Positions 12,309 to 32,802 of a stretch of DNA of 32,802 bases are shown piece by piece. The notes below the pieces were generated by a model. That model worked only from the letters and a program-made list of their open reading frames with translations. It searched no databases and was not told where the DNA came from. The position numbers and the translations under genes were made by a program. Every line of letters starts with the position of its first letter. Within the stretch, counting starts at the first letter, position 1. Source of the stretch: Lachnospiraceae bacterium (GTDB lineage Bacteria; Bacillota; Clostridia; Lachnospirales; Lachnospiraceae); the NCBI GenBank assembly GCA_016282435.1, contig JAEEKN010000153.1:1-32802 (forward strand), read 5' to 3'.

Positions 12309-12382
<74 letters not shown>

Positions 12383-14188: not shown

Positions 14189-14265
14189 GTCAAAGTCACC
14201 TCGAAAACGCCTTCAGCGTTTCCTCGGTAACAAAACGATGCTCTGATATCTTCTATTTTGTTATA
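14189..14265 (-). repeat. Short copy of a structured two-copy repeat (54-bp core 14189-14242; upstream block 14245-14265)
   Basis: Core is the exact reverse complement of 32519-32572; gatatcttctattttgttata is reverse complement of 32418-32438 with 1 mismatch. Confidence 0.95.
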
Positions 14266-14291
14266 ATACCATATATTGAAAATATTATCAA
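14263..14291 (-). promoter_or_regulatory. Sigma-A-type promoter for the 13354-14142 gene
   Basis: On - strand TTGATA, 17 bp, TATTAT; the predicted transcript starts in the short repeat copy. Confidence 0.6.
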
Positions 14292-32160: not shown

Positions 32161-32277
32161 GGTTTTTAGACTTTTTACCTTAACTAATGACGGATTGCTT
32201 CTTTTCGGTGTTTGGGCGGTAAAAAGTCTTAAATCCTTTTCGAGCAAGCTCGAACGGTTTTTAGTCTTTTTACCTTA
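32161..32277 (-). repeat. Repeat trio in leader of the zinc-ribbon gene: direct repeats 32161-32182 and 32256-32277 with an inverted partial copy 32218-32233
   Basis: ggtttttagactttttacctta / ggtttttagtctttttacctta (1 mismatch) and ggtaaaaagtcttaaa; also hairpin ttcgagc-aa-gctcgaa. Confidence 0.9.
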
Positions 32278-32279
32278 GT

Positions 32280-32308
32280 ATCATAATATATTTTACGGGA
32301 TTTTTCAA
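32280..32308 (-). promoter_or_regulatory. Sigma-A-type promoter for the zinc-ribbon gene
   Basis: - strand TTGAAA, 17 bp, TATGAT. Confidence 0.65.
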
Positions 32309-32417
32309 TATAAAAATAAAATTCTATTTGAAATATCGTCTTTTTATGGTAAGATAAATAAAATGCTTTTCCGACCGGGAAGGCAGTATGTAAAGTTACT
32401 GACAAAGTCGTTGCTAA

Positions 32418-32572
32418 TATAACAAAACAGAAGATATCCCCCACCTCTTAGCGTAGCGAAGGTGGGGGGAGATCTTCGTTTCAGGCGGAGTTCAAGCCCC
32501 GACTGAAATGAGATGCGAAGCATCGTTTTGTTACCGAGGAAACGCTGAAGGCGTTTTCGAGGTGACTTTGAC
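32418..32572 (+). repeat. Long copy of the structured two-copy repeat
   Basis: Contains the 54-bp core 32519-32572, upstream block 32418-32438 and an intervening 80-nt segment absent (2 nt) from the 14.2-kb copy; four successive hairpins. Confidence 0.93.
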
Positions 32573-32802
32573 GAAAAATTTAGAAAAAGGATATTATATA
32601 AGAAAACTTGCTTTATCTGACGAGATACTGATGAGTGTGGACAAATCCGCACGTTACATAGGACATGAAGTAAATGCTCTCTGGAAGGACCCGGATACGG
32701 TGGACATACGCTTCTGCATGTGTTTCCTCGATGTGTATGAAGTCGGCATGTCTCACATAGGAATACAGATCTTTTACGAGATGTTTAACAGAAGACCCGA
32801 TA
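32568..32802 (+). CDS. Radical SAM protein N-terminus, TIGR03960-like (3' partial, not in the ORF track)
   Basis: Frame open to window end: TKNLEKGYYIRKLALSDEILMSVDKSARYIGHEVNALWKDPDTVDIRFCMCFLDVYEVGMSHIGIQIFYEMFNRRPD. Candidate TTG start 32568 with SD gaggtga. Confidence 0.8.
   Translation, partial: MTKNLEKGYYIRKLALSDEILMSVDKSARYIGHEVNALWKDPDTVDIRFCMCFLDVYEVGMSHIGIQIFYEMFNRRPD

Follow-up and report, generated by a model that had tools for sequence, protein, structure and literature searches.

A dispersed two-hairpin element of one Lachnospiraceae genus, probably mobile and non-autonomous, whose orientation follows inferred replication direction

The palindrome-associated transposable elements (PATEs) of Haloquadratum have subterminal palindromes and lack terminal inverted repeats and target duplications (PMC3119063). 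Transposition of the insertion sequences IS608 and ISDra2, with the Y1 transposase TnpA, relies on the lagging-strand template, on hairpins and on guide tetranucleotides (PMC6006769). REP and REPIN sequences with their RAYT enzymes are short, palindromic, intergenic and present in high copy number, with the Y1 enzyme encoded in the same genome (PMC6006769, PMC3116915). BOX elements of Streptococcus pneumoniae are modular and intergenic, and their insertions mirror the coding bias, with 60.8% on the leading strand (PMC3049150).

A structured 155-bp element was analyzed in a 32,802-nucleotide stretch of Lachnospiraceae DNA (GenBank assembly GCA_016282435.1, contig JAEEKN010000153.1), hereafter the window. 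Like PATEs, it has palindromes near both termini, no terminal inverted repeats and no target duplication, is too short to code, and occurs in shortened forms and many copies. PATE palindromes match IS605-type transposons, whereas those of the element matched none found in the incomplete genomes available, and it differs further in its bacterial host, its putative TATAA target and its inserted hairpin cassettes. With IS608 and ISDra2 it shares hairpins near the ends, a fixed 5′ target apparently left outside the element, the lack of duplication, an orientation fitting the lagging-strand template, and circle-like junctions. Unlike them, it is non-coding with no Y1 TnpA or TnpB inside, the target TAA forms part of its left stem, and its ends differ from those of the resident tnpA loci. 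It resembles REP and REPIN sequences in being short, palindromic, intergenic and numerous in a genome with a Y1 enzyme, but has no GTAG or GTGG at the hairpin foot, has a fixed 5′ TATAA, lies away from the RAYT gene and keeps one consistent strand. Its modular build, variable inner modules, intergenic position and uncertain partners recall BOX, although its orientation exceeds the gene bias.

Enterobacterial intergenic repeats such as ERIC are imperfect palindromes in transcribed gaps with no known mobiliser, and ERIC is considered to duplicate TA. The element likewise forms imperfect palindromes in transcribed gaps, but its sequence is probably unrelated and no TA duplication was seen.

Structure and forms of the element

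The 54-bp perfect inverted match between 14189-14242 and 32519-32572, reported in the earlier note, was confirmed and is the longest inverted pair of the window. A second match, given there as 32418-32438 against 14245-14265, was also found, with its extent revised to 32412-32438 against 14245-14271 at 89% identity. The long copy (32418-32572, 155 bp) folded at -72.4 kcal/mol (z = -6.4 against shuffles), which reproduced the hairpins previously drawn on paper, and the short copy (14189-14265, 77 bp, minus strand) folded with z = -3.8 against shuffles. Both copies, described before as lying in gene leaders, are located in intergenic gaps between divergent genes, and each is oriented toward the gene downstream of it. 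With Rfam at the gathering threshold, a tRNA at 12309-12382 was the sole match in the whole window and at E ≤ 10 there was no credible match for the element, in line with the earlier view that it belongs to no recognised riboswitch class. The parts of the two copies are as follows.

32418..32422, plus strand: TATAA, putative insertion target directly 5′ of the unit in the long copy (from TATAA-preceded copies, head-to-tail copies and ortholog protein ends)
32423..32572, plus strand: putative mobile unit, long form, 150 nt, CAAAAC...TTTGAC (from the copy alignment, with sharp ends and unrelated flanks)
32420..32533, plus strand: composite left hairpin, in which TAACAAAAC (32420-32428) pairs with GTTTTGTTA (32525-32533) (from the fold; pairs retained and covarying)
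32434..32512, plus strand: cassette of about 79 nt with two hairpins, not in the short form (from the comparison of short and long forms and from covariation in helices 2 and 4)
within 32434..32512, plus strand: cassette hairpins GAAGAT/CCCCCACC...GGTGGGGG/ATCTTC and GTTTCAG...CTGAAAT
32512..32524, plus strand: small hairpin GATGC-GAA-GCATC, core of the left hairpin of the short form (from the fold, pair retention and covariation)
32530..32566, plus strand: right hairpin GTTACC...GGTGAC, whose GTTA is common to the left stem and is a possible guide sequence (from the fold and covariation)
32567..32572, plus strand: right terminus TTTGAC (constant copy end and junction partner in head-to-tail copies)
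14261..14265, minus strand: putative TATAA target of the second copy
14189..14260, minus strand: putative mobile unit, short form, left hairpin slightly degenerate (from the window matches and a covariance-model match of 89 bits)

Elsewhere in the window, 105 nt upstream of the element (32194-32298) were 85% similar to the region upstream of another copy (locus L002) and have the appearance of a terminator-type hairpin repeat. A second contig of the host assembly (G000:C417:9669-9777, locus L080) carries the same element at the same site, with a 3′ flank 97% identical to window positions 32573-32802; where the downstream gene probably starts, L080 has ATG and the window ATA, and the second contig is probably a strain variant within the metagenome-assembled genome (MAG).

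A common form of the element is the short form, about 76 nt with two hairpins, TATAA-CAAAACAGAAGATGCGAAGCATCGTTTTGTTACC..., and the long form of 155 nt corresponds to it with the 79-nt two-hairpin cassette inside the left-hairpin loop. The short form is best read as the basic unit and the cassette as an extra of the long form. The size difference noted earlier between the window copies, a 2-nt against an 80-nt middle, stands. The copy at 14189 did not arise from the long copy by deletion; it belongs, with slight degeneration, to a short form of about 76 bp in its own right. An intermediate form (L188:4655) and right-hairpin-only copies (TATAAC-GAGG...) were also found, and all forms have both ends in common. 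At L035/L088 (C92:6399-) and L081 (C424:308+), an unrelated terminator-like stem stands in place of the left hairpin, joined exactly at GTTTTGTTACC.

The stems are retained across copies, with about 95-96% of cells pairing. Two-sided changes, for which the earlier note had proposed a covariance check, affected 8 of 22 pairs in the short form and 8 of 55 in the long form, a level reached in 0 of 500 shuffles; the cassette hairpins were backed by covariation in helices 2 and 4. Compensatory changes from CG to AU and UA were seen in the C/G pair that includes the first base of the unit. G-T wobbles in the right stem pair on the top strand only, and by computed DNA folding the two strands are equal for the short form, with the top strand better for the long form. 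The covariation is equally predicted by single-stranded DNA transposition that recognises hairpins.

Dispersal, ends and target site

A BLAST search of the host genome with the long form gave 41 matches, at 95-100% identity except for one partial match, and the right end occurred 75 times with up to 3 mismatches against 0 times for a reversed control pattern, which bore out the suspected repeat family. Searching the same genome, a MAG with 83% completeness and 5% contamination, with a covariance model of 41 diverse short copies gave at least 146 matches. Many of the BLAST matches sit at contig ends, evidently because the assembly broke on the repeat. The family breaks assemblies in these MAGs, many contigs ending inside the element, and it puts paired hairpins into many intergenic gaps.

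Across 24 genomes of the genus, the number of copies found with the covariance model ranged from 0 to at least 146. Six other same-genus genomes had at least 10 copies; the count was 89 in G005 and at least 146 in G008 as in the host, with zero in G004, G009, G012, G013, G016, G018, G019, G021 and G022. Among GTDB contigs, the exact core occurred in rumen Lachnospiraceae MAGs only. In samples of 299 and 250 genomes of the family, the element was absent save for two weak single matches in other genera, one of them in G267, where no convincing further copies were found, and searches of viral contigs (IMG/VR), phages and plasmids did not find it. From these matches, the family appears restricted to the genus.

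Aligned copies have sharp ends, CAAAAC...TTTGAC, beyond which the flanks are unrelated. TATAA stands directly left of CAAAAC in 85 of the 109 full copies (78%), with TGTAA and TTTAA next commonest. In head-to-tail copies, at least seven clear junctions of the type TTTGAC-[C/T]AAAA were found from which TATAA is missing; the other head-to-tail cases listed, which are weaker or have single AT-rich flanks, are not among the seven. The simplest reading of these sequences would take CAAAAC...TTTGAC as the unit and TATAA as host sequence. The TAA stop of the upstream gene is the last part of TATAA in 15 of 83 full copies that have a sense upstream gene, and in three comparisons (L150/L197, L183/L203 and L165/L228) orthologs of the protein encoded upstream end at the same residue with and without the element. 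The empty site of L197, TATAACAAAAAC, may be a relic, so the ortholog ends support rather than prove TATAA as host sequence. Two-sided empty sites were sought in same-genus relatives, which are too diverged, and none was clean.

No target duplication was seen in the flanks of 44 full copies of the host genome, and the termini CAAAAC... and ...TTTGAC are not inverted copies of each other. Small size, folding, high copy number and AT-rich flanks would also fit a classical MITE dependent on a DDE transposase, but the lack of both terminal inverted repeat and target duplication, together with the strict strand bias described below, makes this reading extremely improbable. A length of 76-155 nt leaves no room for a transposase gene, and no longer copy with a gene between the ends was present among the fetched loci.

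Orientation relative to genes and replication

Orientation was analyzed for the 109 full copies present in sequence from the host and its relatives, 1.54 Mb in total, with genes called by a simple codon-usage script. Between codirectional genes, 71 copies were sense and 3 antisense. Copies in divergent and convergent gaps followed the majority strand of the surrounding genes by 22 to 4 (4 ties; binomial p = 5e-4, a statistic that, like the others on orientation, assumes independent copies, which neighbouring copies are not), and 16 of 19 such sites agreed with positive GC skew. At distances of 1.5-8 kb, agreement between element and gene was 0.84 (471/558), compared to 0.77 between genes of the same loci. 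Pairs of elements separated by more than 20 kb of the same contig agreed in 29 cases and disagreed in 9; for instance, one orientation was shared by all five copies along 123 kb of G008:C34, by all four of C49 and by three spread along 279 kb of C146. Because the bias persists in gaps where transcription gives no cue, the orientation of the element follows replication, with its direction read from gene strand and GC skew rather than from a mapped origin and terminus. Insertion into the lagging-strand template would make copies point as leading-strand genes do, and the window copies would consequently look like gene leaders; their sense orientation beside start codons would be a by-product of fork direction. 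A replication-coupled mobile element is thus easily mistaken for a leader RNA.

A shared leader RNA was the other reading offered by the earlier note. It was rejected, since the element is common to only 6 of 52 orthologous gene ends between species, a proportion that if anything overestimates conservation at orthologous sites, the regions of the relatives having been picked because they hold elements. Its derivation from the sense bias was dropped, as orientation persists by 22 to 4 in divergent and convergent gaps, and replication direction explains the sense orientation better. In broader terms, an RNA retained for gene control and acting in cis from leaders or intergenic gaps, as an attenuator, a terminator or a processing element, would fit the ratio of 71 to 3, the frequent placement of copies between stop codon and ribosome-binding site, the paired and covarying hairpins, and CGTTTTGTTA after the left hairpin, which recalls a weak terminator. 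Set against the same orthologous gene ends and gap orientations, the unrelated downstream genes, the absence of the element from several same-genus species and the lack of an Rfam match, this explanation is highly unlikely. Regulatory side effects of single copies on their neighbours are possible.

Proposed movement and search for the mobiliser

The element probably belongs among non-autonomous miniature mobile elements and travels as single-stranded DNA, much like the IS200/IS605-derived PATEs. The earlier suggestion of a non-autonomous mobile element, possibly derived from IS200/IS605, holds as far as behavior is concerned: copies are numerous and nearly identical, their ends are sharp, the target is not duplicated, hairpins lie subterminally, the 5′ target is fixed and the orientation fits the lagging strand. 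The proposed descent was not supported, since none of the IS200/IS605 elements found had ends like those of the element.

The proposed mechanism calls for a Y1 (HUH) transposase supplied in trans, which would recognise the top-strand hairpins and excise CAAAAC...TTTGAC as a putative circle with the junction TTTGAC-CAAAAC. The circle would then insert 3′ of TATAA on the lagging-strand template at the fork, without target duplication. As the guide, GTTA between the hairpins would pair in the left stem with TAAC and in the right stem with TGAC; TAAC would consist of three target bases and the first base of the unit, and the terminal TTTGAC also includes TGAC. Such pairing may recall the guide-cleavage pairing of IS200/IS605. 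The TTTGAC-CAAAAC junctions in tandem copies would bear only indirectly on a single-stranded circular intermediate. Counting against the Y1 model are an excess of 5′-truncated copies (35 versus 16 3′-truncated) that it does not explain, the lack of an autonomous copy with these ends, the absence of an IS200-type TnpA match from G008, the lack of a clean two-sided empty site, and the presence of TATAA in 78% of copies but not all.

The truncations and the constant 3′ end would suit a small element copied through RNA by reverse transcription and then entering the lagging strand, as would the sense and lagging-strand orientation; group II introns can enter the lagging strand. This explanation is barely conceivable: the element matched neither a group II intron nor any other family in Rfam, DNA hairpins predict the covariation equally, and later deletions may inflate the truncation counts.

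The host has three Y1 genes with full domains, two for IS200-type TnpA (C100, with TnpB, and C291) and one for a RAYT (C385). No match to the ends of the element was found in 13 IS200-type and 12 RAYT-type Y1 loci of the genus, whose genomes are incomplete; the ends of the resident IS200/IS605 tnpA loci are unrelated to it and no autonomous copy was found. A full-length transposon sharing its ends, which the earlier note had named as grounds against a leader RNA, was likewise absent from the genus Y1 loci. No transposase lies beside the truncated copies, where the flanking genes are housekeeping, and no copies of the element occur within the RAYT loci of about 3 kb.

A resident RAYT (TnpA_REP) could itself be the mobiliser, the element then being REP/REPIN-like with atypical hairpins and not an IS200/IS605 derivative. 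Among ten genus genomes at least 92% complete, the element was present in 5 of 6 RAYT-positive and 0 of 4 RAYT-negative genomes (Fisher p = 0.048; p = 0.03 over all 24 genus genomes), an association that is post hoc and uncorrected for shared ancestry. In G008, 97% complete and with at least 146 copies, the RAYT is the sole Y1 match, with no match for an IS200-type TnpA, and RAYTs likewise use single-stranded DNA (PMC6006769). On the other side, G013 lacks the element although it has a RAYT, and G005, though only 81% complete, shows 89 copies with no Y1 match. The repeat on the flanks of the RAYT genes is another one, GGGGACGGTTCT / AGAACCGTCCCC, and the consensus has no conserved GTAG or GTGG tetranucleotide at a hairpin foot. 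The RAYT is only loosely tied to the element family, and as its mobiliser it is rather unlikely; if it had that role, it would offer a rare chance to test RAYT-driven spread beyond the classical REPs. Equally tentative, and on the whole doubtful, is the fuller proposal that the two-hairpin element owes its mobility to a domesticated RAYT or to a Y1 enzyme not yet recognised, with one shared GTTA guide serving both ends and insertion at the fork, some genomes thereby being loaded with well over 100 transcribed hairpins in one direction.

Several other repeats were observed at the fetched loci. In G014, G010 and G017, the RAYT genes of loci L128, L135 and L136 occupy the same site, between rsmE-like and cysteine-desulfurase-like genes, and are flanked by their own TGACAATGGGGACGGTTCT... 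repeats. Two genus Y1 loci, L119 and L120, have IS605-type left ends with CCCCCACCTC...AGGTGG hairpins that recall the long-form cassette, a weak match (E = 0.17). A palindromic repeat that is also dispersed, CTTCCCC..TGAGGGGAAGG, occurs in the flanks of L006, L009, L011, L012, L024, L044 and L114, with 28 matches in the fetched loci, and a further dispersed repeat, GTCATTCTGAGCGAAGCGAAGAATCTT, occurs in the right flank of L005 and elsewhere, with 20 matches in the fetched loci.
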